The translations under genes and the position numbers were made by a program. The notes beneath the pieces are model-generated. The model was not told the DNA's origin. It searched no databases and worked only from the letters and a program-made list of their open reading frames with translations. This document shows, in pieces, positions 340-13,212 of a stretch of DNA of 64,000 nucleotides. The DNA is from Haloarchaeobius sp. HME9146 (lineage in GTDB: Archaea; Halobacteriota; Halobacteria; Halobacteriales; Natrialbaceae). Within the stretch, counting starts at the first letter, position 1. Each line of letters starts with the position of its first letter. The stretch spans positions 868,001-932,000 of the forward strand of contig NZ_JAODVR010000001.1 of NCBI RefSeq assembly GCF_025399835.1, written 5' to 3'.

Positions 340-639
340 ATGGCTTCGCTCAATGCAGCATTCGGCACGCTTGCCGATGACGACATGTGGGAGGACGCGG
401 TGGCGGCCCTGGCGGGCTACCTCGCGCCGACCGCGCTTCGCAACGTAATAGAACCGAAGACCGGTCTGGACCTGCCTGACGAGGCGTACGGCGCACTCGT
501 GATGGCGGGCGGGCAGTACAGCCCGATGTACGCCTCGAGCATCAGCCTCGGCGGCGGCATCTATGTCGCCGACAAGCTCACGGAACGCTTCGGCCTGCAG
601 CAGGCCGTCACCGGGATCGGGACGGGAGGTAACAACTGA
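340..639 (+). CDS. small protein, first gene of the virus-like structural operon
   Basis: A 99-residue protein starting MASLNAAFG. A TTG 57 bases upstream would extend it, but the extension is in low-GC leader sequence, so I chose the ATG. The protein is alanine- and glycine-rich with short hydrophobic stretches in the C-terminal half (around GALVMAGGQY and SISLGGGIYVADKL). Its stop overlaps the start of the next gene (TGATG at 636-640). Small virion proteins precede the capsid genes in SH1-like viruses, so a virion or assembly role is plausible. That is inference from position only; I recognise no family. Confidence 0.6.
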   Translation: MASLNAAFGTLADDDMWEDAVAALAGYLAPTALRNVIEPKTGLDLPDEAYGALVMAGGQYSPMYASSISLGGGIYVADKLTERFGLQQAVTGIGTGGNN

Positions 640-1118
640 TGGTGTCAGTCAGCCATCTTTCTGACTTCGTCACGCAGCAGACGAACGTCACGGGCACCAC
701 GACGCCCATCCTCGAAATCCAGCCGGAGAACGGGACGATGCTCCGGTTCCGCGACCGCGTCGGCCAGGGCAGTGAGAAGGGCATCCCGGTCGTGATGAAG
801 CTCAAGGACGCCGGCGGCAACGAGCTGCCGACGGACACGGAGGTCATCTTCCGGGTGCTCCGACCGACCGACGACGAGCCGGTTCCTGTCTCGCAGAAGG
901 AGGACAACATCGCGGCCTGGAACGGCCTTAGCACGAAGGAGCAGCGTAACGAGGAGAACATCGACCAGACGAAGATGAACCTCAAGGGCGACCGGGTGAA
1001 CGTCCGCGACAAGGACGTTCTGCGGGTCGAGGCCAACTCGTCGACGGCCATCGACTGGGGGAACTCGGAGTTCTACTTCGGTCGTGAAGCGGTCGAGGAA
1101 CTCCCGTACGAGGGGTGA
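639..1118 (+). CDS. putative small major capsid protein (VP7-like position)
   Basis: A 159-residue protein. The middle (residues about 24-90) alternates short beta strands with acidic turns (TPILEIQPENGTMLRF, VIFRVLRP), as expected for a compact beta-barrel. It is followed immediately by a second, larger beta-rich protein whose start overlaps by 4 bases. SH1, PH1 and HHIV-2 encode two adjacent single-beta-barrel capsid proteins (VP7, about 185 residues, then VP4, about 232). The match here is by order, size and predicted fold, not by an alignment. Other virion roles are possible. Confidence 0.5.
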   Translation: MVSVSHLSDFVTQQTNVTGTTTPILEIQPENGTMLRFRDRVGQGSEKGIPVVMKLKDAGGNELPTDTEVIFRVLRPTDDEPVPVSQKEDNIAAWNGLSTKEQRNEENIDQTKMNLKGDRVNVRDKDVLRVEANSSTAIDWGNSEFYFGREAVEELPYEG

Positions 1119-1858
1119 AACGGATGGTGAACAAGAAGAAGGTGCTCAACGACCTTCGGAACGCCTCGGCGACCCAGCAGCGACTGAAGCGCCAGGACTT
1201 CGACCTGACGAACGGGACGAGTGGCGTCGAGACGAAGATCGCCTCCTACGAGGCAGAGTCGCCCATCGTGCTCCGCGAGGATGCGATGCGGCTGATGTTC
1301 GTCACCGTCGAGCAGTTCAGCCACACCGGCAGCGGGTCGGAGACGTTCAACCTGGCGAACGACATCATCTCGACCTCGAACACGACCGACATCGTACTGT
1401 TCGATGACGGGAACCGGGTTCAACCGAGTTCGGTCGACTACGCGGCCAACACGTTCGACTACTACGACGAGGCAGCGGCGACCCTGCACGTCGCGTACGT
1501 GCCAGCGGACGCCTCAAAAATCCGCATCGAGAAGTCGAGCCCGAAGTCACAGGGCCGGGTCACCCAGACGGTGTTCACGGACGTGTCGAAGGCGCTGCAC
1601 GAGACGAACCAGAACAAGCAGCCGCCGTCGATGAACTTCCAGAACATCCAGGCGAACCCGTTCAAGCCGGTGGTTCCGCGGAAGTGGACGCTCGATGTCT
1701 ACGCGGATGGACCGGTCGCGTTCGAGTGGGACGACTCCGACACGGGCAACCCGCAGGGGGTGACGGCGAGCAACGCAGTGATGTCGCTGCCGGTGAACCG
1801 GGCAAAGAGTGACATCGAGAACCTCTCGGCGGCCGTGAAGGCCGACATCATCGAGTAG
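1115..1858 (+). CDS. putative large major capsid protein (VP4-like position)
   Basis: A 247-residue protein starting with a basic, coiled N-terminus (MVNKKKVLNDLRNASATQQR) and continuing with a beta-rich body from about residue 45 (MRLMFVTVEQFS, TDIVLFDDGNRVQPSSV, TLHVAYVPAD). The start overlaps the stop of the preceding gene by 4 bases, so translation is probably coupled. Size and position fit the second single-beta-barrel capsid protein of SH1-type viruses. The basic N-terminal arm could contact the membrane or a neighbouring capsomer (inference). The family assignment needs a structure or profile search. Confidence 0.5.
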   Translation: MKRMVNKKKVLNDLRNASATQQRLKRQDFDLTNGTSGVETKIASYEAESPIVLREDAMRLMFVTVEQFSHTGSGSETFNLANDIISTSNTTDIVLFDDGNRVQPSSVDYAANTFDYYDEAAATLHVAYVPADASKIRIEKSSPKSQGRVTQTVFTDVSKALHETNQNKQPPSMNFQNIQANPFKPVVPRKWTLDVYADGPVAFEWDDSDTGNPQGVTASNAVMSLPVNRAKSDIENLSAAVKADIIE

Positions 1859-1865
1859 ATGCATC

Positions 1866-2096
1866 ATGAACGACGTTCCCCTTATCGAGACGCAGGGGAG
1901 CACTCGCAGTAGCGGCGCAACCGCGACGGTCACCGACTCCATCTCGGCTTCGACGCCGGGCGAACCGCACATTTCTTGGACCCGTTCAGACGGGTCGACG
2001 GTGGTTCTCGGAGCCGATGACCTGATGGTTTACATCTCGCTGCTGCAGACGCTTCTCTTGCTGTACGTGACGTATCGAGAGGTGGTGGGCGAATGA
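1866..2096 (+). CDS. small membrane protein of the structural operon
   Basis: A 76-residue protein with a polar serine/threonine-rich N-terminal half and one C-terminal hydrophobic helix (about residues 51-70, LMVYISLLQTLLLLYVTY), then a short charged tail. This is the layout of a single-pass membrane protein with an exposed N-terminus. SH1-like viruses have an inner membrane and encode several such small proteins directly after the capsid genes (VP13 position). It overlaps the next gene by 4 bases (ATGA at 2093-2096). Confidence 0.6.
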   Translation: MNDVPLIETQGSTRSSGATATVTDSISASTPGEPHISWTRSDGSTVVLGADDLMVYISLLQTLLLLYVTYREVVGE

Positions 2097-2464
2097 GTGG
2101 CGGTCAAGTCGCCTTCTCGTTTCCCCTGAATGTGCCGCAGGGAGAGGCACACCACTACAAACAACAGATTCCGGAAGATGCGACCATCGAGAAGACGGTC
2201 GTGTTCTTCCCGGTGGGAACGCGCACGGATCTTCAGGTGCAGCTCACCGTCGACGGTGACAACATCATGGAGACGGAGGAGGCTACGGGTAGCGACTCCT
2301 TCGGCGACTACATCGTCGGGTCCGGCACGACCTACCCGTTCGAGCTGTCGGTGCAGGTGTTCGAGGGCCAGAACCTCGGCGTGAAGGCCGAGAACGTGAG
2401 CACCAGCAGCGACCTCGACGGATTCGTGTCGTTCACCCTCAACTACGGCGGGGGTGGTGTCTAA
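2093..2464 (+). CDS. beta-rich virion-like protein, function unknown
   Basis: A 123-residue acidic protein whose sequence alternates hydrophobic and polar residues (KTVVFFPVGTRTDLQVQLTV, YPFELSVQVFEG, GFVSFTLNYGGGGV) and ends in a glycine run, suggesting a small beta-sandwich. It has no signal peptide or membrane helix. It overlaps its neighbours by 4 and 1 bases, so it is translated as part of the structural operon. I do not recognise the family. A capsid-associated or spike-associated role would fit the context. Confidence 0.6.
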   Translation: MSGGQVAFSFPLNVPQGEAHHYKQQIPEDATIEKTVVFFPVGTRTDLQVQLTVDGDNIMETEEATGSDSFGDYIVGSGTTYPFELSVQVFEGQNLGVKAENVSTSSDLDGFVSFTLNYGGGGV

Positions 2465-3303
2465 TGGGTAACGAGCAGCAGTACGCGACGAACGAACTGG
2501 ACGCGCTCACCGACGCCTTGTCTTCACAGGCGACCGACGAGATGCGGGTCACGTCGCCTGGAACCCTGACGACGGACATCACCGACCGGACGGGTCGGAA
2601 CCTCGGGAAACTCCGGCTCATGGACTCCGGAGAGGTGCTCATCGACCCGGCGACCGAAGGCACGCTGCAGGCGATTGCAGCCGCCCTCTCATCGAACGCG
2701 ACCGACAGCCTCCTCGTCGACAGCAACGCGGCGCTCGACGTGAGTGCCGCACAGGTCGACGTGGATCTGGCGGCGCAGACGCTCGGGAGCATCGATGTGG
2801 ACCTAGCCGCGCAGACGCTGGCCGAGGTCGCCGTCGACTTGTCCGCACAGACAGGAGGTCCCCTCGACGTGAGCGCGGCGGAAATCGACGTAGACCTGAA
2901 CTCCCAGACGGGCGGCCCACTTGACGTGAGCGCGGCCGAGGTCGACGTAGACCTGGCTTCGCAGACGAGTGGCCCGATCGATGTGAGCGGCGCGACCGTC
3001 GAGACGGCGGAGACGGCTCTGCCGGGGTTGTTGCACGGGCAGGACTCGACGAGCGCGGCAGACACGCCGGTCGCCCTCAACGGCGGCACGTCGGCGGCTG
3101 TGCCCGCTGGCGCTACCCTGCGAGTGAAGGCACTCAGTGGCAACGGTGGGTCGGTCTTCGTCGGCGGTGCTGGCGTGACGACCGGCGACGGATATGAGCT
3201 GGCCAGCGGCGAATCGACCACGCTCGGCGTCGACGACGTATCGACCGTCTACATCGTGGACGGCACGGGCGGCCTCGGTGTGTCATGGGTGGTCGAACAG
3301 TGA
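2464..3303 (+). CDS. fibre-like repeat protein (VP2-like position)
   Basis: A 279-residue protein with a central array (about residues 93-178) of imperfect repeats of the type DVDLAAQTxGxIDVS, alternating lengths of about 12 and 18 residues. Such alternating Val/Ile-Asp repeats are typical of beta-spiral or trimeric fibre shafts. A C-terminal domain (from about residue 195) with many glycines could be the head. In SH1 the structural protein VP2 is also repeat-rich and lies downstream of the capsid genes; at 279 residues this protein is much shorter. Role as fibre or spike is inference. Confidence 0.55.
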   Translation: MGNEQQYATNELDALTDALSSQATDEMRVTSPGTLTTDITDRTGRNLGKLRLMDSGEVLIDPATEGTLQAIAAALSSNATDSLLVDSNAALDVSAAQVDVDLAAQTLGSIDVDLAAQTLAEVAVDLSAQTGGPLDVSAAEIDVDLNSQTGGPLDVSAAEVDVDLASQTSGPIDVSGATVETAETALPGLLHGQDSTSAADTPVALNGGTSAAVPAGATLRVKALSGNGGSVFVGGAGVTTGDGYELASGESTTLGVDDVSTVYIVDGTGGLGVSWVVEQ

Positions 3304-3311
3304 GACAGAAC

Positions 3312-3386
3312 ATGAACGGAGAGACGCTCGGAGGCTGCATTGCCTCCCACGACGGACGCAGAGACCTGGCCGGAGGTGGTGGATAG
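3312..3386 (+). CDS. possible 24-residue micro-ORF
   Basis: An ATG nine bases after the preceding stop opens a 24-codon frame (MNGETLGGCIASHDGRRDLA...). Its stop TAG (3384-3386) shares its last base with the GTG start of the next gene, the same coupling used throughout this operon. It has no recognisable domain. It may be a real small protein, or simply a translational relay across an otherwise 82-base gap. Confidence 0.3.
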   Translation: MNGETLGGCIASHDGRRDLAGGGG

Positions 3387-3982
3387 TGGTTATCGCTGCA
3401 CCTGGTAGTGTCGCGGAACTACCGACGGTCGAGAAAGACACCGAGGCCCAGCCACACTCGGGACCGCCCGACGACCTGAACCAGGGTCGGCGGCGGCCGA
3501 CTCGGAGCGCTGGCGTCGAGCCGACGGTCGAGAAATCGAAGGGTCGTCACAAGAAGGAGAAACAGAAGAAGGAGCCGAACCCGGTCCAGAGCAGCGAGGA
3601 CCGTGAGGTGCATCACGCGGTCGGCTCGGCAAACGTCACGACCAGCCTCGACCGTGACTCTGGTCGGGCAGAAACGACGCTCACCGGGCCGGGTTCGGGG
3701 AACGCGACCTCAGGCGCAAGCCAGGAGGACGACGTGACCGTCGCGAGAAACGCCCCGACAGACTCACACGCAGACGTCGAACGTACTGAGCAGGCAGTCG
3801 AGAACCAGACTGATGGGGCAGCCTACGGCGACCCTGACACGGTCGAAGACATCGGCAGCGGTGACGCTGTGACCGACACGACTCCCAGCGGCACGTCTGA
3901 GGGCGGGCTCTCGACTGCTGTCCTGGTGGTCGCTGCACTCGCACTGGTCGGACTCACCGTGGCCAACGGAGGTGGTCGGTGA
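3386..3982 (+). CDS. C-terminally anchored, charged virion-like protein
   Basis: A 198-residue protein from the GTG at 3386. Most of it is disordered, very polar sequence with lysine/arginine clusters (KGRHKKEKQKKEPN, about residues 52-65) followed by an acidic, threonine-rich stretch. The C-terminus is one hydrophobic helix (about 174-193, LSTAVLVVAALALVGLTVAN). A long soluble arm with a C-terminal anchor fits a virion membrane protein. A longer frame starting at 3194 overlaps the previous gene deeply and is less likely. It overlaps the next gene by 4 bases. Confidence 0.6.
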   Translation: MVIAAPGSVAELPTVEKDTEAQPHSGPPDDLNQGRRRPTRSAGVEPTVEKSKGRHKKEKQKKEPNPVQSSEDREVHHAVGSANVTTSLDRDSGRAETTLTGPGSGNATSGASQEDDVTVARNAPTDSHADVERTEQAVENQTDGAAYGDPDTVEDIGSGDAVTDTTPSGTSEGGLSTAVLVVAALALVGLTVANGGGR

Positions 3983-4485
3983 TGGGCGGCATGTTCGACG
4001 GGATCGCTGGCTTCGCCGACAACCTCGCGGGCTCGACCGACGAAGCGGTCGGGCGTGCGACTGACGCCGCCATGCGGGGTGACTGGGGCGGTGTGGGAGA
4101 CAATCTCGCCGGCGACGTGGACGACGCAGTTGGTCGCGCCATCGACGCCGCGCAAGATGGTGATTGGGCCACTGCCGGGGACAACCTCGGCGGTGGCTTC
4201 GACGAGTGGTGGGCGACCAACGACATCACCGACGGGTTCACCGACACGGTGTGGTCGGGCCACGATGGCGACACCATCGACCTGTTCGGGCCGACCGCGT
4301 GGGGCGAGCAGGGCAGTGTCGTCGACTACGCGACCGACACCGAAGGCGAGCAGATGACCCCGACCGAGCGCATCGTGCAGGGTGGACTCGACGACTACTG
4401 GTGGGTCTTGGTGGCTGTCGTCGTGCTCATCATGCTGGCACCGTATGCAGATCTCGCCAACACCGCGGCAGGTGGTGGGTCGTGA
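3979..4485 (+). CDS. membrane protein with 27-residue repeats (VP10-like position)
   Basis: A 168-residue protein; the start is GTG 3979 (overlapping the upstream stop) or ATG 3982. The N-terminal half contains two nearly identical 27-residue repeats beginning DNLAGSTDEAVGRATDAA and DNLAGDVDDAVGRAIDAA, and a third partial one, predicted as amphipathic helices. The C-terminus is one strongly hydrophobic helix (about residues 136-153, YWWVLVAVVVLIMLAPYA). The layout suggests a virion membrane protein with a helical repeat domain outside or inside the membrane. Function unknown. Confidence 0.6.
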   Translation: MMGGMFDGIAGFADNLAGSTDEAVGRATDAAMRGDWGGVGDNLAGDVDDAVGRAIDAAQDGDWATAGDNLGGGFDEWWATNDITDGFTDTVWSGHDGDTIDLFGPTAWGEQGSVVDYATDTEGEQMTPTERIVQGGLDDYWWVLVAVVVLIMLAPYADLANTAAGGGS

Positions 4486-4712
4486 ACGACCCACTGCTCA
4501 CGTTCGCGGTTTCGGCGTCGGCCATCACCGCGGGCTCGACGGCAATCTACTGCGGGAAGGTCGCGCGGGACGTGGCGAACACGATCCAGAAGAACGAGCG
4601 GCGCAGTCGGCTGAACAGGCGGCTGCTGTCGGTGTTCGCGAAGGCCCACGAGACGGTTGACACCGACCTGATTCAGGCACTGGATGCGCAGGAAACGGAG
4701 GGCGGTAACTGA
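4482..4712 (+). CDS. small membrane protein of the structural operon
   Basis: A 76-residue protein from a GTG that overlaps the preceding stop (GTGA). It has a hydrophobic N-terminal segment (about residues 4-23, PLLTFAVSASAITAGSTAIY) followed by a basic amphipathic helix (KNERRSRLNRRLL) and an acidic tail. It ends in TGATG, sharing a base with the next gene. It is probably a single-pass virion or assembly protein; no family is recognised. Confidence 0.6.
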   Translation: MNDPLLTFAVSASAITAGSTAIYCGKVARDVANTIQKNERRSRLNRRLLSVFAKAHETVDTDLIQALDAQETEGGN

Positions 4713-4948
4713 TGTGGGGCCTTGAGGTCGCGCAGTCAGCGATGCCGACGGCTTCCGTGGTCGTGCTCGCGTTCCTCGCAGGAGCAGCGTGTCCGGCGTA
4801 CTACGCACAGGAACGCCTGCGTGGGTTCGGGCGGACGATACTCTCGCGGCTTCCGTACGCGCCGCCACCGGGAATGGATGCGGAGCAGGCGATGCAGCAG
4901 GCCGTAGAGGCTGCAGAGACTGGAACGGAGGGCACTCAGGATGAGTAA
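4712..4948 (+). CDS. small membrane protein of the structural operon
   Basis: A 78-residue protein with a hydrophobic helix near the N-terminus (about residues 10-30, AMPTASVVVLAFLAGAACPA), then a basic segment and a glutamate/glutamine-rich C-terminal helix (MDAEQAMQQAVEAAE). It is coupled to both neighbours (TGATG upstream, 8-base overlap downstream). This is the fourth one-helix protein in the operon, consistent with a membrane-containing virion. Specific role unknown. Confidence 0.6.
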   Translation: MWGLEVAQSAMPTASVVVLAFLAGAACPAYYAQERLRGFGRTILSRLPYAPPPGMDAEQAMQQAVEAAETGTEGTQDE

Positions 4949-5765
4949 CTACGACCACATTCAGACGGAAGACGAGAACGGGAACACCCGGCATACGTCG
5001 ACTTCGGAGCCGAGTTTCAAGGCGGTGAGTCTCGGCGGCGGTCCTCCGGTGACGGAAGTGCTCGGGGTCGAGCCGCCAGACGGGAAGATCTACGCGGATG
5101 ACGGCAACACCTACAGCGACCCGTCGGCTGCTGAGTCGGCAGCGTCGGAGTACCTCGTCTTCGGAGCTGGGTCGTTCGACACGCTCCAGGTCAACACTGC
5201 GGACCTGTCGGTCTGGGGCATGGGGAACGCGACCGTCATCGATCCGGGCTTCGGCTACGGAATCGACGTAGATGCCGCTGGCGTGTCTATCCGCAATCTC
5301 AGAATCGACTCCCCGTCGAGTGCAGTCGACCTGTCCGGAGGGGACCTGACTCTGGAGAACCTCAACATCACCAGCGGCCAGCAGGGCGTTTGGTCCACCG
5401 GGTCGGTGACGGTCCGGCACTGCGTGTTCGAGGCGACGGGATACTACGGGTTGAACCTGCGAGGCCCCGACAACCTCGTCGAGTGGTGCCGGTTCCGCGA
5501 TGGAATCACCCAGGGAGCCGTTCGGACGACGGACAACGACAACATCGTCGCGAACTGTAGAATCGACGGCCCCGGTGAAGACGCATTGCTGATGAGTGGG
5601 AACAACGACATCATCCAGGGGAACCGAATCAGCAACGCTGGCTGGGACGGCATCGACGTGCAGGGAAGCGACCAGATAGTGGCACTGAACCGTGTGTCCG
5701 GGTCAGGAGCCTCGAACATCAACAGCGGCACGAACACGACCCTGTCTGGGAACCTGACCGGGTAG
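4941..5765 (+). CDS. right-handed beta-helix protein (putative spike)
   Basis: A 274-residue protein. From about residue 60 it shows pectate-lyase-like periodicity: turns of 21-25 residues ending in N-rich ladders (GVSIRNLRID, DLTLENLNIT, SVTVRHCVFEA, DNLVEWCRFRD, DNIVANCRID, NDIIQGNRIS, DQIVALNRVSG). This is a NosD/pectin-lyase-type parallel beta-helix. No catalytic site is evident and there is no signal peptide. As last gene of the structural operon, where SH1-type viruses encode spike proteins, a receptor-binding or host-surface-degrading spike is likely (inference). The beta-helix call itself is firm. Confidence 0.7.
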   Translation: MSNYDHIQTEDENGNTRHTSTSEPSFKAVSLGGGPPVTEVLGVEPPDGKIYADDGNTYSDPSAAESAASEYLVFGAGSFDTLQVNTADLSVWGMGNATVIDPGFGYGIDVDAAGVSIRNLRIDSPSSAVDLSGGDLTLENLNITSGQQGVWSTGSVTVRHCVFEATGYYGLNLRGPDNLVEWCRFRDGITQGAVRTTDNDNIVANCRIDGPGEDALLMSGNNDIIQGNRISNAGWDGIDVQGSDQIVALNRVSGSGASNINSGTNTTLSGNLTG

Positions 5766-5873
5766 AGCGCCGCCTCTCCTATTTCGTGTTTGTGTACGAG
5801 TCTGAATTAGTCTCTCGAAAACCCATTCTACCGGTATCTTAATATGATACTTACTCAACTATTCGAATCCACC

Positions 5874-6341
5874 ATGCGTGAAACACTTGCCCGCGGGAAC
5901 TGGGACGAAGGATACACCGTTCTCACGGTTACAGATGAGCCTGAGGATGCGCCTGTTGAGGGATATGAATCTAAGAAACTGATGTACGGGTTCAAATCAC
6001 TTAATGAAAACCGGAAAGACTCTCCATGCGTCGAATTCACATCGATGGAACTCCGTGAACTCATCCGTCAGACCCGATTGAATCTCGGTACTGGTGTTTT
6101 CTCCGAGCCCGACTTTGAGAAGATCCAAAACTGGTATGACACTAACGGTGAGGGTGTGGTTGCAGAAATTGGACGAGAGGATGGGTACAGGAAGCAGTTT
6201 AAAATCAGTGAAAACGACGACAATGGAAAACCGTATTTCAAAATTCAGCGGTTTTCCGAAAACGGAGGAAACCTTCAGACACTTCCTACAATGGGTCGCC
6301 AAGAATTCGAACAAATCTTCTCTGGAGTCGCGATTCTGTAG
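5874..6341 (+). CDS. hypothetical protein in AT-richer cargo
   Basis: A 155-residue polar protein. I chose the ATG at 5874 because a TATA-like cttaatat (5838-5845) lies about 30 bases upstream, giving a nearly leaderless transcript; the ATG at 5844 would lie inside the promoter. The sequence is mixed alpha/beta with many charged residues and no membrane helix. Base composition is clearly lower in GC than the structural operon, marking a change of origin. A T-run (6369-6374) after the stop could terminate transcription. No family recognised. Confidence 0.6.
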   Translation: MRETLARGNWDEGYTVLTVTDEPEDAPVEGYESKKLMYGFKSLNENRKDSPCVEFTSMELRELIRQTRLNLGTGVFSEPDFEKIQNWYDTNGEGVVAEIGREDGYRKQFKISENDDNGKPYFKIQRFSENGGNLQTLPTMGRQEFEQIFSGVAIL

Positions 6342-6493: not shown

Positions 6494-7099
6494 ATGCGGT
6501 GTGAGAGAAACAAGGATGGGTCGTTCAACGTCTGGATGACCCGCGACGAGTATCACGAGTTGCCCCGAGCCGCAGATACCTTCCAGCGAGAGATTGCCAT
6601 CCGACTGATGGGCGATTGTGGGCTCCGCGTCGCTGAGGTACTCGATGTCAAGCCCGTGCACATCTCCAGGAAGGCCGACGGGAAGCACTACGATCTCGAA
6701 GTCGTGAGCGGCAAGGACACCACCGGAGAGTACGCGGGCGGGAAGCATCGCGAGACGTGGCTCCCACGCGAGCTTGAGGCGCTGGTGAATCGCTACTGCC
6801 AGCAGCACAACGTCGACGAGAACGAGCCGCTCATCGACCGCGGGAAGCGCACGGTCCAGTACTGGGTCGAGCAGGCCGCAGAGGTCGCGGCCAAGGAGAC
6901 GGGCGACGAGGACTATCTGCGTATCTCGACGCACGACTTGCGGCGCTGCTGGGCGAACCATCTCCTGGTCGAGGAGAACGTGAGTCCGCGAATCGTGATG
7001 GCGCTCGGTGGATGGAGTAGTTACGATGCGATTGAGCCGTATCTGGCAGCGCCGACGGAGGAGAACATCATAGATTGCATGACTCAAGTTGGACTGTAG
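6494..7099 (+). CDS. tyrosine recombinase, catalytic domain only
   Basis: A 201-residue integrase/recombinase of the XerC/D-lambda Int class. The catalytic set is visible: Arg45 in GLRVAEV, His147-x-x-Arg150 in STHDLRRCW, Trp in GGWSS, and the nucleophile Tyr183 in IEPYLAAP (Tyr177 is the alternative). The usual N-terminal SAM-like arm/core-binding domain is missing, so it is about half the length of a normal integrase. Such short forms occur in haloarchaeal viruses and plasmids, where they may act in resolution or inversion. A full-length integrase lies at 12160, so this one is probably not the only recombinase of the element. Confidence 0.85.
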   Translation: MRCERNKDGSFNVWMTRDEYHELPRAADTFQREIAIRLMGDCGLRVAEVLDVKPVHISRKADGKHYDLEVVSGKDTTGEYAGGKHRETWLPRELEALVNRYCQQHNVDENEPLIDRGKRTVQYWVEQAAEVAAKETGDEDYLRISTHDLRRCWANHLLVEENVSPRIVMALGGWSSYDAIEPYLAAPTEENIIDCMTQVGL

Positions 7100-7108
7100 C
7101 TTGAGAAA

Positions 7109-7780
7109 TTAATCTGAATCTTTGCCTTCTGTTCTGCTCTTGTATGAGAGTACTGCTGCGGCTTCTTCGGGAGGAATTTGTTCTACTGTTTCTCCATCTT
7201 CCACTACAGATACCGTGACCTCACGTTCAATCATTTTTTCAAATAGTGTGTCTCTTTCTCCAACAATATGCAGGAAGGAAGATTCGACTGCCTTTATCTC
7301 TCCCGTCTGGATTACCCTGTCAATTAGCTCTTCAGGGGTGATGGATTCAGACTCTTTTTTGATCTCGACGGAAACCTCTGGTATTCTCCCTTCAAGCAGT
7401 TCTCCGTACTCGATGGCTCCCCTGAGTAATTCCTCGAACCTCTGGTGTGGTTCAATCTCATTTCCATTGACGTGGCCTGCCTCTGAATTTGAATGGTATA
7501 TCAGAGACAGCGCCTCAAGCAGTATATGTGGACCTTCGTCAAATATCTCTTCGAATACCAGTTTTCGGTCTTTATACGGGAGCGTGTTATTGAGGTAGCT
7601 GAGGTCAACGAACGCTTGGAAGATTCGTTTTCTAATCCGATATCTCGCATCACGCCGAATACCCGCCCTTTCTTTTTGACTAGGATGATTCCTCTTCGCT
7701 ACTTCCTCTAACACCTCGTAATCGTCGGAAGTCAATATTCCATTGAACCTTCTGGCTGAACCGTTACTTTTATCTGCCAT
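7109..7780 (-). CDS. hypothetical helical protein, possibly autoregulated
   Basis: A 223-residue protein from the ATG at 7780 (MADKSNGSARRFNG). A longer frame starts at 7810, but that start would lie at or before the expected transcription start, given the TATA element aaatata on the minus strand around 7816-7824. The N-terminal third is basic (KRNHPSQKERAGIRRDARYRIRK), possibly nucleic-acid binding. The rest is acidic and helical. A perfect 12-bp palindrome sits between TATA and ATG, where a repressor would act. No recognised family; it is low in GC like the neighbouring cargo genes. Confidence 0.6.
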   Translation of the reverse strand: MADKSNGSARRFNGILTSDDYEVLEEVAKRNHPSQKERAGIRRDARYRIRKRIFQAFVDLSYLNNTLPYKDRKLVFEEIFDEGPHILLEALSLIYHSNSEAGHVNGNEIEPHQRFEELLRGAIEYGELLEGRIPEVSVEIKKESESITPEELIDRVIQTGEIKAVESSFLHIVGERDTLFEKMIEREVTVSVVEDGETVEQIPPEEAAAVLSYKSRTEGKDSD

Positions 7781-7790
7781 CGTTGTTGCT

Positions 7791-7824
7791 ACTAACGTTA
7801 GTGGTGGCACGGACGTATATTTAT
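7791..7824 (-). promoter_or_regulatory. promoter with 12-bp palindromic operator
   Basis: ACTAACGTTAGT (7791-7802) is a perfect palindrome placed between the minus-strand TATA-like element (about 7816-7824) and the ATG at 7780. It covers the expected transcription start. Binding there would block initiation of the gene at 7780-7109. Confidence 0.45.
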
Positions 7825-7879
7825 TATGGAGGATGCTCTCCTTTGAAGTACAATAAGATAGGTGACGTCTTCCCTACGG

Positions 7880-7985
7880 TTCGTTGAAAAGCCCTGAGTG
7901 GCACCCAGACCGGCTACCACACAGGACGGGTGCCTTCAGGTTCTAATCACCCAGGCGAGTCAGGGGGTTGGGTCCCAGACTCAAG
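7880..7985 (+). ncRNA. possible structured RNA or structured recombination site
   Basis: Two consecutive hairpins are predicted by eye. The first pairs CCTGA (7893-7897) plus GGCACCC (7900-7906) with GGGTGCC (7928-7934) plus TCAGG (7936-7940), a 12-bp stem with a small internal loop. The second pairs GAGTC (7957-7961) with GACTC (7978-7982) around a G/C-rich inner stem. A TATA-like ataagat (7853-7859) lies upstream at a plausible distance. It lies between two divergently arranged cargo genes. It could equally be a recombination or protein-binding site. Confidence 0.3.
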
Positions 7986-7994
7986 GGTTCGATT

Positions 7995-8029
7995 GCACTA
8001 GTTCCTTCTATGGCACTAGTGATATATCT
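7995..8029 (+). promoter_or_regulatory. promoter with paired GCACTAGT sites
   Basis: GCACTAGT occurs twice (7995-8002 and 8013-8020), each containing the self-complementary ACTAGT, 18 bases apart. The second copy abuts the TATA element gatatatc (8021-8028) of the gene at 8060 and would cover the BRE. A dimeric regulator binding both sites is the simplest reading. Confidence 0.5.
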
Positions 8030-8059
8030 TACCCTGGTCGCTGAGACTTGCATTTACGA

Positions 8060-8734
8060 ATGAAAGCAGGAGTAATCGCAACAATTGAAGGCGACTTCGA
8101 TAGACTCGATAGCTACCACGAATCGACTACCGATCGCGGATTCGACTTGACCACTTGTGTCGATGTCCGACGAGGTCACATCGATCTCCCTACCGGAGAC
8201 CTAATCGCTCAGTCAGGTCGGGTGTTAACCCAGTCTGTTGAGAGGGTCTCTGAAGTTGATGTCGAGGATGGAGAAATCATCACCAGTGACGGGCACGATC
8301 GGATTAGCCAGTGGACGCAATTCATTGTCGTCCCGGGCGAGTTCATGATCGTCGAAGGTGGTGACGATACCTTCGCATTCGATGTTGTGGGCGACCTTAC
8401 CCAGACTCACATCGAACGCGCAAACTTCGACCTTGACGAGTATGCAGAAACCCGTCCCGAGGCAGAACCCTGGAAGTATGGGTTCTACAACGGAGCAGGA
8501 AACGCTGAAAGTGGTACTGTTTATGGTACTAACGTGGTCGAAGACCCTGAGATGGGAGATGTCCTCTCTCAGTCTAACAAAAGCCAGCTCGGTCTCGAGC
8601 TGATGTACGAAAGTATGGAGATGAAGATGGAGGTCACGAACAGCGGCTACTCGCGTGTCCTCCGACCGACGAACTTCTCCACTGAGAACTTCGTTCATTT
8701 CATACTGAACGAGTTCTGGGAGCACCGGGAGTAG
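8060..8734 (+). CDS. hypothetical protein of the cargo region
   Basis: A 224-residue acidic protein starting MKAGVIATIEGDFDRLDSYH. The ATG at 8060 is about 35 bases after the TATA element, which favours it over a TTG at 8048. The sequence is mixed alpha/beta, with repeated short strands in the first half (GDLIAQSGRVLTQ, TQFIVVPGEFMIVEGGDD) and a helical C-terminus (NFVHFILNEFWEHRE). No membrane segment or metal-binding motif is visible. Its own controlled promoter and position between a recombinase and a defence-like operon suggest an element-encoded function, but I cannot name one. Confidence 0.6.
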   Translation: MKAGVIATIEGDFDRLDSYHESTTDRGFDLTTCVDVRRGHIDLPTGDLIAQSGRVLTQSVERVSEVDVEDGEIITSDGHDRISQWTQFIVVPGEFMIVEGGDDTFAFDVVGDLTQTHIERANFDLDEYAETRPEAEPWKYGFYNGAGNAESGTVYGTNVVEDPEMGDVLSQSNKSQLGLELMYESMEMKMEVTNSGYSRVLRPTNFSTENFVHFILNEFWEHRE

Positions 8735-8771
8735 CTGACTCCCACTTCTGGATTATTTGACTTAAAAACTC

Positions 8772-9179
8772 TCAGATTGTAGTCTGTGCCTGTTGAGAGA
8801 ATGATATCTTCACTCTATTCTCGCCGAGCTCTCTGTAACGTGGGCTAGGGTTATTGAAAAGAGCAGAGCTAAATTTCTCAATCTTGGTTTCGTGTTGGAT
8901 GTACTCGCTGACTGGATTTTCTGACTTCAGCAATAATGCAACACTATATTCGTTAATTGAATGGTCCGAACTCCGAATCTTATCTTTGATTTCACTAAAG
9001 GTATTTGATAGATTAATGTGGCGGAGGGAATTTATCTCAATTCTGACCCGAATATCTCCATTCGGCAACATCTGTAATTCCATTCCCTCATCAGTCGTTC
9101 TGTATTCGACAGAGCCCTCTTGAGAGACCTCAGTAACGGTTGCGGGCCTAATAAAGTGGAATACCAGCTCAGTCATCAT
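8772..9179 (-). CDS. third gene of candidate defence operon, unknown
   Basis: A 135-residue protein beginning MTELVFHFIRPATVTEVSQ (a second Met directly precedes). The N-terminal 60 residues are predicted beta-rich (VEYRTTDEGMELQML, DIRVRIEINSL) and the remainder mixed. It contains no catalytic motif that I recognise. Its start overlaps the end of the nuclease-like gene by 11 bases, so it is made from the same transcript. It could be an accessory, sensor or inhibitor subunit of the nuclease (inference). Confidence 0.6.
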   Translation of the reverse strand: MMTELVFHFIRPATVTEVSQEGSVEYRTTDEGMELQMLPNGDIRVRIEINSLRHINLSNTFSEIKDKIRSSDHSINEYSVALLLKSENPVSEYIQHETKIEKFSSALFNNPSPRYRELGENRVKISFSQQAQTTI

Positions 9180-10161
9180 CTGCCTCCGAGGATGTAGAGT
9201 CGTCCATATCGATTAGTTTACCAATGTCCTGACTGAGCTCGGTTTCAGTTCTTCTTTCCTGTTCTCTCAGGCGTTGGAGCTCCTCAAAGTTCTCTTCAGT
9301 TCGTGATTCTAAGGTTTCTAGCAGCACTTCATCAACTTTGTCCTTCCCCCTGAGATATTCCGCATAATCGAGGATATCTTCTTTACTTCTCGCAGGTTCG
9401 TCAACCTCGATGTTATCAGGGCCATATTTCGAATGAACTTCTTGAGCCGCAGACTGGAGTTCTTCGGGAGTTTGGCCGGATGAGTTAGTAGAATGCTCTA
9501 ATCTCTTCAACCGGAAACCGGCCGCATTTTGAAGTTCCTCTCGGGTAACCGTCCCGCTGTCGATCGACTCAATTTTGTCTATAATCTTTTTCCGGCCAAA
9601 CCTGGCTTTCCCCGGACTACATTCGCGCAAGTACTCTTCAATACCGTGTATCAACTCTTTCTTTGTATGATGTTTGAAATCAAACCCCCGAAGCAATTCT
9701 TCTATGTACTTGCTTTCTTCCTCTAAATCGTCTACAAGAGAATCGATTATTTTCCGCTCGTGTTTTGTAGATAGAACATTCCACCCAATCGCCCCATCTC
9801 GGAGCCTGCGAATATCATCAACTAATTTCCCTATCTTTTGTTGGACTTGAACGTTAGAAACTAGAACCACATTTTTGATAGTCTCATCAGTCGTCTCTTC
9901 TTCTATGAACACCTTCTCCAGGTTTGGAGCTATATTTTTGGAAAAGTAACTCCAAGTAATTTGTCCTCTTTTCCTGCTCTTTGCCTCAAAATAGAACTTA
10001 CGCTTGTACTCACCATCATGATAAAAAAATGCAAAGTCAGCATGGTGTTTTTCGATATGGAGGGAGTTCGCACTCTCATCACGAAGAAAATAGTACGCAG
10101 CAGCCAGATCCTGATACTCTTGCCCCCTTCTCTGAGGCGCTCCGCCACCTTCTTGCGTCAT
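9169..10161 (-). CDS. DUF4297/Cap4-like PD-(D/E)XK nuclease with helical C-terminal part
   Basis: A 330-residue protein. Residues 9-65 match the pattern of DUF4297 dsDNA endonuclease domains (as in the CBASS effector Cap4): R12-G13-x-x-Y16-Q17-x-L, then Asp42 in HADFAFF and Glu59-x-Lys61 in YFEAKSR as the D...ExK active site. The following helical part (about 100-215), with an EELLRGFDF-type segment and a VTREEL turn, also fits DUF4297 proteins. The last 110 residues are acidic and coiled-coil-like. Known partners of this domain (a CD-NTase, or a HerA ATPase) are absent here; instead it is coupled to two unknown proteins. Likely role: target DNA degradation in a phage-defence response (inference). 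Confidence 0.65.
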   Translation of the reverse strand: MTQEGGGAPQRRGQEYQDLAAAYYFLRDESANSLHIEKHHADFAFFYHDGEYKRKFYFEAKSRKRGQITWSYFSKNIAPNLEKVFIEEETTDETIKNVVLVSNVQVQQKIGKLVDDIRRLRDGAIGWNVLSTKHERKIIDSLVDDLEEESKYIEELLRGFDFKHHTKKELIHGIEEYLRECSPGKARFGRKKIIDKIESIDSGTVTREELQNAAGFRLKRLEHSTNSSGQTPEELQSAAQEVHSKYGPDNIEVDEPARSKEDILDYAEYLRGKDKVDEVLLETLESRTEENFEELQRLREQERRTETELSQDIGKLIDMDDSTSSEADDD

Positions 10162-10880
10162 TCGTCTTCTATTCCTTCAGCTTCGCTGGTTGGTTCAGAT
10201 AGTTCTTGATCGATATCTTCTTCGCGATATTCTTCGACTTGAGATTCTAATTCATCTAGGTCCTCTCGAATCATCTGAACCCTATCTAGATCAATATCAC
10301 GGAGAACGTCTTCACCAATAGCATTCCTCGCGTTTAGTATCTGAGTGAGCATATGCTCTGTTAGCAGGAGAGAATTATTCAGGCCGCTTTGGAAGGTTAT
10401 CGTATTCTCATAATTGATAGATATCTCATGTTCCAAGTATACCCTGCCAGACCGGAGTCCTATATTCGTTTTAATATTGTTCCACCAATTTGGCCCCCGA
10501 CGTTCTTGATACAGACGTTTCTGGAGGTTTCTCCCGTGTTCATTCGATAGTCTAGATAAGAAACAAATAAGATCTTGGCTAACACCTTCCTCACGAAGAT
10601 TATCAATCAGTTCGTGATTCTGAGTTAGATTCATTACAGCAGTTATCAGTGTATTCATTAAGTCAACCAGTTCTTCGCTCCCTGGTTCGACGTCTTGATG
10701 AACAGAAAGCGCTAGCAGTAGTTGCTCAGCAATAGGTTCAAGAGAATTATATTCGGTATCGGAACTGACCCCACCTTCGAATGCTGCAGAGATCTCTTCT
10801 TTTTGGTCAATAATTATCTGAGAGTTCTCTGCCAGCTCATAGAGCTTCTCTGATGGGTCACCGCGTTCCACTTCTACCAT
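10158..10880 (-). CDS. first gene of candidate defence operon, unknown
   Basis: A 240-residue, almost entirely helical acidic protein. The ATG at 10880 is about 30 bases from a strong TATA element (complement of 10905-10915), so the mRNA is leaderless. A conserved-looking basic/aromatic patch (RLYQERRGPNWWNNIKTNIG, about residues 122-141) interrupts the helices. The C-terminal 50 residues are coiled-coil and very acidic. It overlaps the nuclease-like gene by 4 bases (ATGA). No family is recognised; a sensor or regulator partner of the nuclease is the natural hypothesis. Confidence 0.6.
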   Translation of the reverse strand: MVEVERGDPSEKLYELAENSQIIIDQKEEISAAFEGGVSSDTEYNSLEPIAEQLLLALSVHQDVEPGSEELVDLMNTLITAVMNLTQNHELIDNLREEGVSQDLICFLSRLSNEHGRNLQKRLYQERRGPNWWNNIKTNIGLRSGRVYLEHEISINYENTITFQSGLNNSLLLTEHMLTQILNARNAIGEDVLRDIDLDRVQMIREDLDELESQVEEYREEDIDQELSEPTSEAEGIEDE

Positions 10881-10962: not shown

Positions 10963-11262
10963 CTACCCTCTCAATGCCATATTCAAATTTGGATAGGGTT
11001 GATGCGCCGCATCAATCTCCCCCTTCAGATATAACTGCCCCCAAGTAGTAATCTCGTACGTCCGCTCGGCCATCGGCGCGATCATGTCGGCATGGGCGAG
11101 CACCCAGCAACGCTCGGCTATCCTTCGTTCACTCGCGTATCTGAACTCGTGCTCGTAGCTCATCGAGCGCGGGGTGGCCCACGAGGTCTCGTTCAGGTGT
11201 TCGAGGATGCGGTCGTCTATCTTCTTCATCCACTCTGCGGAGCGACGGAGTCTTATTGTCAT
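10963..11262 (-). CDS. winged-helix transcriptional regulator (phiH1-repressor-like)
   Basis: A 99-residue protein with the haloarchaeal repressor layout: an SAEWMKKIDDRILEHLNE helix 1, a helix-turn-helix with ASERRIAERCWVLAHADM as recognition part, and a wing (MIAPMAERTYEITTWGQLYLKGE). Regulators of this kind control lysogeny in phage phiH and are common in haloarchaeal proviruses. It stands 30 bases downstream of a second, similar repressor gene on the same strand, so the two are probably co-transcribed. Likely target: the divergent promoter region at 11605-11705 (inference). Confidence 0.75.
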   Translation of the reverse strand: MTIRLRRSAEWMKKIDDRILEHLNETSWATPRSMSYEHEFRYASERRIAERCWVLAHADMIAPMAERTYEITTWGQLYLKGEIDAAHQPYPNLNMALRG

Positions 11263-11292
11263 GGGGAGGGGTTGCGTCTTGGAATGGTGGTT

Positions 11293-11604
11293 TCAGTTTG
11301 CTTCTTCGGATGCCGACACGTCTCCGTTTCCGTTGTTGGGGACCTTGTTGAGCGCGTCTTCGCTGGTGTCGTACTCTCCCCGTAAGTAGGCCTCTCCATT
11401 GTCTGTAATCACGTACACCCCATTACCAACGTGAGTCAATAGCCCGCGTTTGGCGAGTTCTTTGCAACGCTTGGCGATGTACTGGCGAGAGTACCGAATG
11501 GGTCCCTCTTCCATCATCTCGGTCGGGGACCCGTGTTCGTTCTCGTGGATGTACTCGAGCACTCGGTCGTCCACGAGTGCCATCCATTTACCGGATTTCC
11601 TCAT
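11293..11604 (-). CDS. winged-helix transcriptional regulator (phiH1-repressor-like)
   Basis: A 103-residue paralogue of the next gene: KWMALVDDRVLEYIHENEH, then RYSRQYIAKRCKELAKRGLL as helix-turn-helix, then a wing (THVGNGVYVITDNGEAYLRGEYD). The C-terminal 25 residues are an acidic tail. The gene is transcribed away from the structured leader RNA and second integrase. The intergenic region carries tandem TAATCTCT repeats that are good candidates for its operator. It probably holds the element in the integrated state. Confidence 0.8.
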   Translation of the reverse strand: MRKSGKWMALVDDRVLEYIHENEHGSPTEMMEEGPIRYSRQYIAKRCKELAKRGLLTHVGNGVYVITDNGEAYLRGEYDTSEDALNKVPNNGNGDVSASEEAN

Positions 11605-11641
11605 TAGTTCCTATTTCTCCAGTAGGCACCGACTATGATAG

Positions 11642-11702
11642 TAATCTCTCTAATCTCTAATAAGATATCTACGAACTATCTGGCGTCGTCGTAATCTATA
11701 AG
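11642..11702. promoter_or_regulatory. divergent control region with tandem TAATCTCT repeats
   Basis: TAATCTCT occurs at 11642-11649 and 11651-11658, with a related taatctat at 11692-11699 that forms part of the plus-strand TATA element tctataag (11695-11702). The repeats lie between the repressor genes (minus) and the integrase operon (plus), so one regulator could control both directions. Confidence 0.5.
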
Positions 11703-11721
11703 AGACAAGGGTCAGAATAGG

Positions 11722-11820
11722 CGAGTGCGGAGCCACCGACAGGATGTAGAAGACTCTCTTGGGCGGTGTGAAGACCGGGGCGCGTTGTAGCGCGCCCCGA
11801 AAGGTGGCTCCGTTCACTCG
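11722..11820 (+). ncRNA. highly structured leader RNA of the integrase operon
   Basis: A long closing stem pairs CGAGTG (11722-11727), C and GGAGCCACC (11729-11737) with GGTGGCTCC (11803-11811), G and CACTCG (11815-11820): about 16 bp with a two-base bulge. Inside, GGGGCGCG (11777-11784) pairs with CGCGCCCC (11791-11798) around a six-base loop, and a shorter stem (CGGT/ACCG, 11764-11777) is an alternative. The TATA element at 11695-11702 predicts a transcription start at about 11723-11727, exactly at the base of the stem. The gene at 11826 starts six bases after the structure. It is either a regulatory leader hiding the start codon or an independent small RNA. Confidence 0.5.
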
Positions 11821-11825
11821 GACCA

Positions 11826-12035
11826 ATGAGTGCGAAAGCCAACACGGGGCTAGAACCCCGCACGGGAGGAGACGAATCGCCCAAGGAAAACAGTAACGAC
11901 GCGGGCCGGTGCTACATCTGCGGAGGCTACGCAGACGGCATCGACGCGAAGTCTCGCGAGCCCATCTGCCGGCGGTGTGATGCGACCTACGGACTGCTCG
12001 TCAAGCGCGCCCTCTGTGGAGGTACGCGCGCATGA
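11826..12035 (+). CDS. small zinc-ribbon protein
   Basis: A 69-residue protein with two CxxC pairs (CYICGGYADGIDAKSREPIC and CRRC) that form a treble-clef or zinc-ribbon site in the second half; the first 25 residues are disordered. It is the first gene of an operon with another zinc-ribbon protein and an integrase. The stop overlaps the next start (ATGA at 12032-12035). It probably binds DNA or a protein partner during element control. The start codon follows the structured leader directly. Confidence 0.65.
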   Translation: MSAKANTGLEPRTGGDESPKENSNDAGRCYICGGYADGIDAKSREPICRRCDATYGLLVKRALCGGTRA

Positions 12036-12163
12036 AGTGCGTCCGCTGTCGGCGCGAGCACGACACCGATGCCAGTCGGTGTCCGAACTGCGGCGGGACT
12101 CCTGCTAGGGAGTTCGACGCGGAGCTGGTTCTGCGGGCGACGCTCGGGAGGGCCGACGGGTGA
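12032..12163 (+). CDS. 43-residue zinc-ribbon microprotein
   Basis: MKCVRCRREHDTDASRCPNC contains two CxxC knuckles separated by 10 residues, a complete rubredoxin-type zinc site, followed by about 23 residues of acidic helix. It starts inside the stop of the previous gene (ATGA) and its stop overlaps the GTG of the integrase (GTGA), so all three are translationally coupled. Such tiny double-CxxC proteins are frequent in haloarchaea. Here it may assist the integrase or regulate it (inference). Confidence 0.6.
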   Translation: MKCVRCRREHDTDASRCPNCGGTPAREFDAELVLRATLGRADG

Positions 12164-13212
12164 GCGACGATCTCGAACCACTCGCCCCTGCACAGGCCGT
12201 CGAGATGTACCTGGAGGCGAAGCAGGACGACCTCACGGAGTCCACACTGAAGGGTCAGAAGTACCGCCTTCAGGCGGTCGTCCAGTGGTGTGACGAGGAG
12301 GGGATCGAGAATCTCAACGAACTCACCGGGCGCGACCTGTACGCCTACCGTGTCTGGCGACGCGAAGGCAACGGGGACGGGCGGGAGGCAGTCAAGCCCG
12401 TCACGCTTCGAGGGCAGCTCGCCACGGTGAAAGCGTTCCTCCGGTTCTGTGGTGACATCGAGGCGGTGCCGAAGGACCTGCACGACAAGGTCCCGTTGCC
12501 CACGCTCGACGTGGGCGCGGACGTGAGCAACTCGACGCTCGACCCGGCCCGCGTCGAGGAGATCCTCGACTACCTCGGTCGCTACGAGTACGCGAGCAGG
12601 AACCACATCATCGTCCTGCTACTGTGGCGAACCGGCTGCCGGACCGGCGGACTGCGGGCGCTCGACCTCCGCGATGTCGACCTGGAGGGCGAGCATCCAG
12701 CCATCAACGGGCCCGCGGTCCACTTCGTCCATCGACCGGAGGAAGGCACCCCGCTGAAGAACAAGGAGCGCGGCGACCGATGGAACCGCATCGGCGCGCA
12801 CGTCGCGCAGGCGCTCCAGGACTACATCGACGGGCCTCGGGTAGACGTGACGGACGACTACGGCCGCGACCCGCTGCTGACGACCACGCACGGACGCCCG
12901 ACCGGCTCGACGATACGCGACACGCTCTACCGCGTCACGCGCCCCTGCTGGCGCGGCGCGGCGTGTCCCCACGACCGCGAGCCGAAGGACTGCGAAGCGA
13001 CCGATATGAAGAAGGCCAGCCAGTGCCCGTCGTCCCGGTCACCCCACGACGTGCGGAGTGGTCGCGTAACCTTCTACAGGCAGAACGACACGCCCCGCCA
13101 GATTGTCCGGGACCGACTCAACGCGAGCGAGGACATCCTCGACAAGCACTACGACCGACGGAGCGAGCGACAGCGCGCAGAACAGCGAAGCAAGCACCTC
13201 CCAGACCTATGA
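12160..13212 (+). CDS. tyrosine integrase, full length
   Basis: A 350-residue phage-type integrase. Residues 8-110 form the SAM-like core-binding domain (AVEMYLEAKQDDLTESTLKG, LATVKAFLRFCGD). The catalytic domain has Arg in TGCRTGGLRAL, a lysine-containing beta turn (PLKNKERGDRW), His-x-x-Arg in SPHDVRSGRV and nucleophile Tyr331 in DKHYDRR. A cysteine cluster (CWRGAACPHDREPKDCEATD) inserted before the HxxR box is typical of haloarchaeal integrases and may bind zinc. The start is a GTG coupled to the preceding gene. It likely integrates the element; a 14-bp direct repeat (13261, 13360) follows closely. Confidence 0.9.
   Translation: MSDDLEPLAPAQAVEMYLEAKQDDLTESTLKGQKYRLQAVVQWCDEEGIENLNELTGRDLYAYRVWRREGNGDGREAVKPVTLRGQLATVKAFLRFCGDIEAVPKDLHDKVPLPTLDVGADVSNSTLDPARVEEILDYLGRYEYASRNHIIVLLLWRTGCRTGGLRALDLRDVDLEGEHPAINGPAVHFVHRPEEGTPLKNKERGDRWNRIGAHVAQALQDYIDGPRVDVTDDYGRDPLLTTTHGRPTGSTIRDTLYRVTRPCWRGAACPHDREPKDCEATDMKKASQCPSSRSPHDVRSGRVTFYRQNDTPRQIVRDRLNASEDILDKHYDRRSERQRAEQRSKHLPDL

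Follow-up and report, generated by a model that had tools for sequence, protein, structure and literature searches.

The stretch of DNA analysed here (the window, 64,000 nucleotides from a contig of Haloarchaeobius sp. HME9146) covers most of an island of 20.05 kb, which runs from a tRNA-Met gene (C1:861245-861320) to a 19-bp copy of the end of that gene at window positions 13355-13373. Within the island, positions 340-5765 hold 11 plus-strand genes, separated by short gaps or overlapping by 1-26 nt, at the positions given by a preliminary description of this DNA, which had regarded them as coupled. The features of the island that fall in the window, with one gene that crosses its left edge, are the following:

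149 leftwards to -987 (1-149 in the window), minus strand: FRG-domain gene, 378 aa, cargo between packaging ATPase and VP6-like gene (Pfam FRG, E 2.5e-13)
340-639, plus strand: VP6-like small virion protein, 99 aa (37% identity to SNJ1 VP6, E 5e-15; present in 53/56 related loci)
639-1118, plus strand: predicted small major capsid protein of 159 aa with a single jelly roll (44% identity to SNJ1 PB7 over nearly full length)
1115-1858, plus strand: predicted large major capsid protein, 247 aa (38% identity to SNJ1 PB2 over 99%, E 1e-52)
1866-2096, plus strand: small protein whose C-terminal part contains a hydrophobic stretch (matching SNJ1 gp28 and HJIV1 gp24 in position and layout, judged by eye)
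2093-2464, plus strand: 123-aa beta-rich protein, possible spike base (a 118-123 aa gene occupies the equivalent place in L101, L104 and L109)
2464-3303, plus strand: fibre-like repeat protein, 279 aa (C-terminal domain common to same-place genes in related proviruses and HRTV-29 gp42)
3278-3982 (start codon uncertain), plus strand: protein with one C-terminal transmembrane helix (homologues in two same-genus proviruses, E 9e-26 and 9e-21)
3979-4485, plus strand: VP2-like, SNJ1 gp29-like Ala-Asp repeat protein with a C-terminal transmembrane helix, 168 aa (composition, layout, place)
4485-4712, plus strand: 75-aa protein (phmmer E 3e-10 to L102, 5e-6 to L056)
4712-4948, plus strand: one-helix membrane protein, HJIV1 gp30-like, 78 aa (65% identity to HJIV1 gp30 over 55 aa; in 21/56 loci)
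4941-5765, plus strand: right-handed beta-helix protein, 274 aa (Pfam Beta_helix, E 1.1e-12)
5844-6341, plus strand: 165-aa protein without family match, absent from related loci
6494-7099, plus strand: short tyrosine recombinase, 201 aa (Pfam Phage_integrase, E 6e-13; homologues in 27/56 related loci)
7109-10880, no strand assigned: cargo block of low G+C (genes for 233, 135, 330 and 240 aa that only this provirus has, and a 228-aa gene)
10963-11604, minus strand: two winged-helix regulators, 99 and 103 aa (like HHPV4 ORF4 and ORF3, 42% and 50% identity; in 23/56 loci)
11826-12035, plus strand: zinc-ribbon-like protein, 69 aa, member of the HHPV4 cassette (49% over 53 aa)
12160-13212, plus strand: SNJ2-type tyrosine integrase, 350 aa (68% identity to SNJ2 integrase, 64% to HHPV4)
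13261-13274, plus strand: partial copy, 14 bp long, of the 3' end of tRNA-Met
13355-13373, plus strand: attR, closing the island on the right (19 bp identical to the 3' end of tRNA-Met; 0.02 expected)

Judged from sequence, the 11 genes at 340-5765 are more than chance open reading frames, because four of them (340-639, 639-1118, 1115-1858 and 4712-4948) significantly match proteins of SNJ1-type viruses and because the trio of packaging ATPase, small and large capsid genes recurs in other genomes. The two adjacent genes previously described as capsid-like do match SNJ1 capsid proteins. The match of 639-1118 to the Pfam VP16-like family (E 3.4e-4) lies below the curated cut-off, and its structure model (pLDDT 77.7) has the single jelly roll fold of VP7 and VP16, with HCIV-1 VP7 matched at a Foldseek E of 1.5e-9 and a VIA Z of 15.9 and all top matches being VP7 or VP16. 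The single beta-barrel anticipated for this protein is thus present in the model, and sequence and model agree in assigning it as the predicted small major capsid protein. The product of 1115-1858 had no Pfam family match and none in a PDB profile search, and its own model is poor and unreliable (pLDDT 49); SH1 6qt9_C was the sole fold match of this low-confidence model at E<1e-3, with a VIA Z of about 6. Single-sequence scans of genome contigs and viral contigs with the large capsid protein returned no matches, and its relatives were retrieved only when an alignment including SNJ1, HJIV1 and NVIV1 served as query.

Upstream of the window, where a packaging ATPase was expected, a predicted FtsK/HerA-type ATPase lies 1.2-2.0 kb to the left, on the same strand as the capsid genes, with Walker motifs and a match to the phrog_2666 terminase. 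It is preceded by homologues of SNJ1 VP2-VP5, and the order from VP2 to VP6 is that of the SNJ1 map. With the fold of the small capsid protein and this ATPase both found, neither of the outcomes named beforehand as refuting a viral module was borne out. The FRG-domain gene between the ATPase and the VP6-like gene matches the PADLOC candidate PDC-S15 (E 1.2e-19) and is absent from the 56 related loci; cargo in this gap nevertheless appears normal, since 17 other loci carry cargo there. In the second cargo block, the 330-aa protein is weakly Cap4-nuclease-like and the 228-aa gene (8048-8734, plus strand) is common to a few relatives. Both insertions, the FRG gene and 7109-10880, might have damaged the provirus, yet the core frames are all open.

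Downstream of the capsid genes, where relatives have their spike genes, the provirus carries genes that are foreign or private to it. The product of 1866-2096 has weak phmmer matches at the equivalent place in loci L012 and L014, and that of 2093-2464 has no phage match and one weak match among 125 family genomes. The fibre-like repeat protein that had been described is present at 2464-3303, and its C-terminal domain occurs also in a tailed halovirus (HRTV-29 gp42); a search for similarity between this domain and turret proteins of solved structure found none. A lectin identity, suggested by one PDB match of 28 residues only, was disregarded. This gene had been taken for a shortened VP2. It encodes a different fibre-like protein, and composition, layout and place suggest that the Ala/Asp repeat protein at 3979-4485 is instead the counterpart of SNJ1 gp29, HJIV1 gp25 and HHIV-2 VP2; the related-locus comparison gave no significant sequence match for it. 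The gene at 4485-4712 is linked to SNJ1 VP7 and HJIV1 gp26 by position only. Four or five one-helix membrane proteins had been proposed, which roughly fits, as a simple hydropathy threshold gives three clear helices (3278-3982, 3979-4485, 4712-4948) and two marginal ones (1866-2096, 4485-4712). The beta-helix protein, also correctly recognised from the sequence, is absent from the phages and related loci searched and is private to the provirus; by position and fold class it is a candidate receptor-binding or glycan-acting spike.

The att sites of the island are intact, and a congener (G001) has an empty site, in which tRNA-Met and the right flank lie about 0.1 kb apart without the island. No RepA, Rep-Arvir or Orc1/Cdc6 was recognised among the island genes, and a tblastn search for the SNJ1-type rolling-circle RepA gave no match in the island and found the gene in 1 of 52 other loci. 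No long inverted repeats were found in this 20-kb integrated island. The module is oriented differently from locus to locus with respect to the tRNA and the SWIM gene, which suggested that the 201-aa recombinase might flip the structural module; this idea is unsupported, as no flanking inverted repeats were longer than chance.

The large capsid protein was matched in 63 of 391 haloarchaeal genomes, spread over 30 of 86 genera, and the ATPase is encoded in all 58 genomes positive for the large capsid protein that were tested, with tRNA genes close by in most cases; proviruses of this kind are therefore, as far as sequence comparison goes, common among haloarchaea. The ATPase/small/large capsid trio has the same order on one strand in each of the 57 other loci that hold all three genes, the two regulators and both integrases are found again in relatives, and 31 of the 32 tRNAs near 40 loci of other families have their 3' end facing the capsid genes. 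In a FastTree phylogeny the capsid core falls within a broad SNJ1-type clade, the branch joining the provirus to the SNJ1 group being weakly supported (0.61). By sequence the core is an ordinary member of this clade, and the divergent lineage proposed earlier, an argument built on the mis-mapped VP2, is not supported.

The nearest described viruses, according to the sequence matches, are SNJ1, HJIV1 and NVIV1 (Simuloviridae) and not, as first supposed, SH1/HHIV-2. The capsid proteins are 32-44% identical to those of the three simuloviruses (32-37% for HJIV1 and NVIV1), whereas SH1/HHIV-2/PH1/HCIV-1 records gave no match at E<=0.1, and the ATPase identity is 38-43% (41-43% for HJIV1 and NVIV1) against 25-29%. 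With SNJ1 (Yingchengvirus SNJ1; NC_003158) the provirus shares the one-strand order VP2-VP3-VP4-VP5-ATPase-VP6-small capsid-large capsid, protein identities of 29-45%, and SWIM-type and AbrB-type early genes, but nothing in it corresponds to PB1 and VP1, the SNJ1 genes of the spike region. As in HJIV1, a gp30-like gene closes the operon, whereas HJIV1 and NVIV1 have other genes between the large capsid protein and gp30. Eleven provirus genes significantly match SNJ1, HJIV1 or NVIV1, the structural ones collinearly, and a few more correspond by position only; simuloviruses share 17-21 collinear ORFs (PMC12642351). The known Simuloviridae are episomes with a rolling-circle RepA, and the gene table of SNJ1 lists no integrase (PMC12642351), whereas the provirus is RepA-less and integrated at tRNA-Met with an SNJ2-type integrase cassette. 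Their genomes are circular dsDNA of 16-19 kb, and the provirus measures 20.05 kb from att to att. The family has three recognised species in two genera; RepA is present in SNJ1 and HJIV1 and absent from NVIV1.

Integrated SNJ1-related loci have been described before, namely ViPREHmuk1 and a Haloarcula marismortui locus, in which SNJ1 homologues and an integrase likewise lie in a tRNA-flanked island (PMC3622292). Both differ in using tRNA-Ala and in carrying Orc1/Cdc6 genes, and the Hmuk island holds more than one virus type (PMC3622292). The integration genes point elsewhere: the betapleolipoviruses share the integrase, the tRNA-Met end as attachment site (SNJ2), and the winged-helix pair and small zinc-ribbon protein (HHPV4), but have another virion type and no capsid gene in common with the provirus.

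We consider it very probable (roughly 93%) that the chromosome carries an integrated temperate virus of SNJ1 type (Halopanivirales), icosahedral, without a tail and with an internal membrane, and that the module is its late operon for building virions. This reading follows from the capsid identities, the VP7/VP16 fold, the upstream ATPase, the VP2-VP6 order, the conserved trio, the island ends and the integrase cassette, and it supports the earlier proposal that a structural module is integrated here from a tailless virus of membrane type, with two predicted single-jelly-roll capsid proteins. Weighing against it are the unreliable model of the large capsid protein and the contrast between episomal, RepA-bearing Simuloviridae and an integrated provirus lacking RepA. 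In such a virus, the integrase would insert the circular genome at tRNA-Met and excise it on induction (the 201- and 350-aa recombinases are both candidates), and the winged-helix proteins would repress the late operon during lysogeny. Around a membrane carrying the one-helix proteins, the two capsid proteins would assemble into a shell, into which the ATPase would pump the DNA; by position and fold class, the vertex spikes that bind the host may be formed or decorated by the beta-helix protein (4941-5765) and the fibre-like pair at 2093-3303.

A decayed provirus or composite island ('ViPRE'), with SNJ1-type capsid genes beside pleolipovirus-type integration genes and a virus no longer formed, is a possible but distinctly less likely explanation. 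It would account for the cargo that breaks the block between ATPase and VP6, the HHPV4/SNJ2-like cassette and the lack of a recognised replication initiator, and composite islands that combine SNJ1 homologues with a tRNA-Ala att have been described (PMC3622292). However, no core structural frame is broken, the gene order is conserved, the att sites are intact, the gap is a cargo site in other loci, and the regulators and both integrases recur in relatives.

Takeover of the capsid genes by a non-viral element, as gene-transfer particles or as a satellite packaging another genome, seems very improbable: the heavy cargo load and the absence of a recognised replication gene would suit it, but the island has its own packaging ATPase, an integrase and a full structural set, its 20 kb compares with a typical 16-19 kb, and many relatives hold the same gene set. 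A true provirus of SH1/HHIV-2 type (Sphaerolipoviridae) is, if anything, more improbable still. Integrated alphasphaerolipovirus-like proviruses are known (PMC5332951), the order from the ATPase to the VP12/VP7/VP4 region is the same, and SH1, HHIV-2 and HCIV-1, together with P23-77 (Matshushitaviridae), share the fold of the small capsid protein (VP7, VP16) and the ATPase superfamily. Nevertheless, the sequence matches of capsid proteins and ATPase favour the SNJ1 group, and the HHIV-2 ATPase lies on the opposite strand to its capsid genes, whereas here, as in SNJ1, it lies on the same strand. SH1-group genomes are linear and of 30 kb.

The SNJ1-type provirus described here thus adds a new member, though not one of a fundamentally new kind, to a group that is already known and surprisingly common. 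There may be, with about even odds in our judgement, a large and mostly chromosomal SNJ1-type radiation that deserves several new genera or families. Its members would retain the capsid core but trade spike genes, replication genes, the integration cassette and a cargo slot freely with the host, with tailed haloviruses and with pleolipoviruses, and the episomal simuloviruses would be the exception. Where double-jelly-roll viruses come from is debated, and one argument brought forward is the narrow known range of single-jelly-roll membrane viruses (PMC8328091). The 63 genomes provide a ready set of proviruses, of which this one is a testable member, for studying spread and spike exchange in single-jelly-roll membrane viruses, and allow one to ask whether that narrow range reflects sampling.

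All eleven genes that the preliminary description had read as the structural module of a tailless membrane-containing virus (window 340-5765) were found, on the + strand and with short overlaps. The finding is real and was mostly well read, and the module is part of an integrated SNJ1-type provirus. The window (C1:868001-932000) lies within a haloarchaeal genome of 4.19 Mb, and its left flank was read as L005 (C1:853001-873000), where window position equals L005 position minus 15000 and positions left of the window are negative. From the capsid genes leftwards, the main features are:

window 1115-1858, + strand: large capsid protein, 247 aa, homologue of SNJ1 PB2
window 639-1118, + strand: small capsid protein, 159 aa, homologue of SNJ1 PB7
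window -987 to 149, - strand: FRG-domain gene, the first gene leftwards
about window -1984 to -1187 (L005 13016-13813): ATPase, beyond the FRG gene
back to about window -4640: homologues of SNJ1 VP5, VP4, VP3 and VP2, in that order leftwards
left of the VP2 homologue: AbrB-like and SWIM-like genes
L005 8245-8320: tRNA-Met, left of the AbrB-like and SWIM-like genes

The packaging ATPase expected upstream of the window is thus present, as judged from its identity to the packaging ATPases of NVIV1 (43%), HJIV1 (41%) and SNJ1 (38%), with 25-29% to those of SH1, PH1, HHIV-2 and HCIV-1, and from its match to a PHROG terminase family (E 1.9e-33). The gap between ATPase and small capsid gene, here 1826 nt (L005 13813-15639; window -1187 to 639), acts as a cargo slot; among 57 related loci it measures 475-611 nt in 40 and 953-2353 nt in 17. 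The cargo differs each time: the FRG gene here and, at related loci, a Mrr nuclease (L057), a PIN-domain gene (L096), an acetyltransferase (L120) or an HTH_10 regulator (L102).

The proposed VP7-type fold of the small capsid protein was recovered. This protein shows 44% identity to PB7, 32-36% to the small capsid proteins of HJIV1 and NVIV1, and a weak Pfam VP16-like match; its AlphaFold2 model (pLDDT 77.7) matches VP7 of HCIV-1, SH1 and HHIV-2 and VP16 of P23-77, and almost no other fold (Foldseek E 1.5e-9), while VIA gave Z 15.9 (142 residues, 2.1 A), the next unrelated chain scoring 6.4. The large capsid protein is 38% identical to PB2 over its whole length. Because its model is poor (pLDDT 49) and resembles no solved chain at E below 1e-3 except 6qt9_C of SH1, its putative capsid fold rests on homology and not on its own model.

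Downstream, 1866-2096 has a layout like SNJ1 gp28 and HJIV1 gp24, and 4712-4948 shares 65% identity with HJIV1 gp30, which closes the HJIV1 operon. VP2 had been placed at 2464-3303, which was not borne out: compared by eye, it is 3979-4485 that has Ala/Asp repeats and a C-terminal helix in common with SNJ1 gp29, HHIV-2 VP2 having similar repeats, and it is therefore the likely VP2 counterpart; a search against related loci gave it no significant sequence match. Between 1866-2096 and 3979-4485 lie 2093-2464, 2464-3303 and 3278-3982, the last with homologues in two same-genus proviruses. The C-terminal domain of 2464-3303 also occurs in genes at this position in five related proviruses; the tailed halovirus HRTV-29 has it in gp42, encoded directly after its capsid gene. 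It would be a capsid-surface domain common to unrelated virus types. In this fibre-like protein the domain is 45% identical to gp42 (see also 3088-3426 of the related locus L081). The beta-helix protein 4941-5765 had no counterpart elsewhere in the group when phages and related loci were searched. We infer a spike role for 2093-2464, 2464-3303 and 4941-5765; vertex genes are the least conserved genes in viruses of this kind (PMC5332951).

Window 13355-13373 repeats 19 bp of the tRNA-Met 3' end exactly; 0.02 matches with ≤3 mismatches were expected in the window. An unoccupied site is seen in the congener G001, where about 0.1 kb separates tRNA-Met from the right flank, and the island is therefore 20.05 kb long. 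A further, 14-bp copy lies at 13261-13274. Adjoining the right end is a 350-aa integrase with 68% identity to that of the betapleolipovirus SNJ2, whose genome starts with the tRNA-Met end. Ahead of the integrase gene stand two winged-helix genes and a 69-aa gene, which find their matches in the HHPV4 cassette. The regulators and integrase (10963-13212) thus form a cassette of the SNJ2/HHPV4 type, as in betapleolipoviruses. SNJ1 and SNJ2 share a known host strain, in which such a cassette exchange could have taken place. Of 56 related loci, 27 also have a homologue of the second, 201-aa recombinase (6494-7099). The block at 7109-10880 is low in G+C (46-50% vs about 64%); family searches gave no match besides a weak Cap4-nuclease one (9169-10161), and the block is perhaps a defence cassette.

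The provirus belongs to a known kind, since integrated relatives have already been reported (PMC3622292, PMC5332951). The provirus is not placed in the Simuloviridae, as that family is defined, since tests for an episomal state and RepA found neither in it; an SNJ1-type RepA occurs at 1 of 52 loci. In capsid-protein trees the provirus groups with the related loci L102 and L107 (support 0.91), then near SNJ1 (0.61), whereas its ATPase joins another set (0.90); these differing placements point to mosaic descent, with modest support.

When aligned large capsid proteins served as the query, matches turned up in 23 of 125 family genomes and, across the class, in 63 of 391 genomes (30 of 86 genera). 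All 58 positive genomes tested had a strong ATPase match, and wherever else the three genes were located (57 loci), they lay on one strand in the order ATPase, small capsid protein, large capsid protein. Some genomes carry two to four equal-scoring copies (four places on C1 of G378, three in G295); in G018 the copies at C1:894456 and 916739, 22.3 kb apart, look like a tandem integration. Many relatives (L056-L059, L012, L014-L018) have the structural module inverted with respect to the SWIM gene, and this window, SNJ1 and L060-L062 do not; flanking inverted repeats that could account for the inversion were not found. Of the 32 tRNAs close to the capsid genes at 40 loci in other families, 31 turn their 3' end towards those genes (20 upstream, 11 downstream), so insertion at a tRNA gene is the norm, with the structural module in either orientation.
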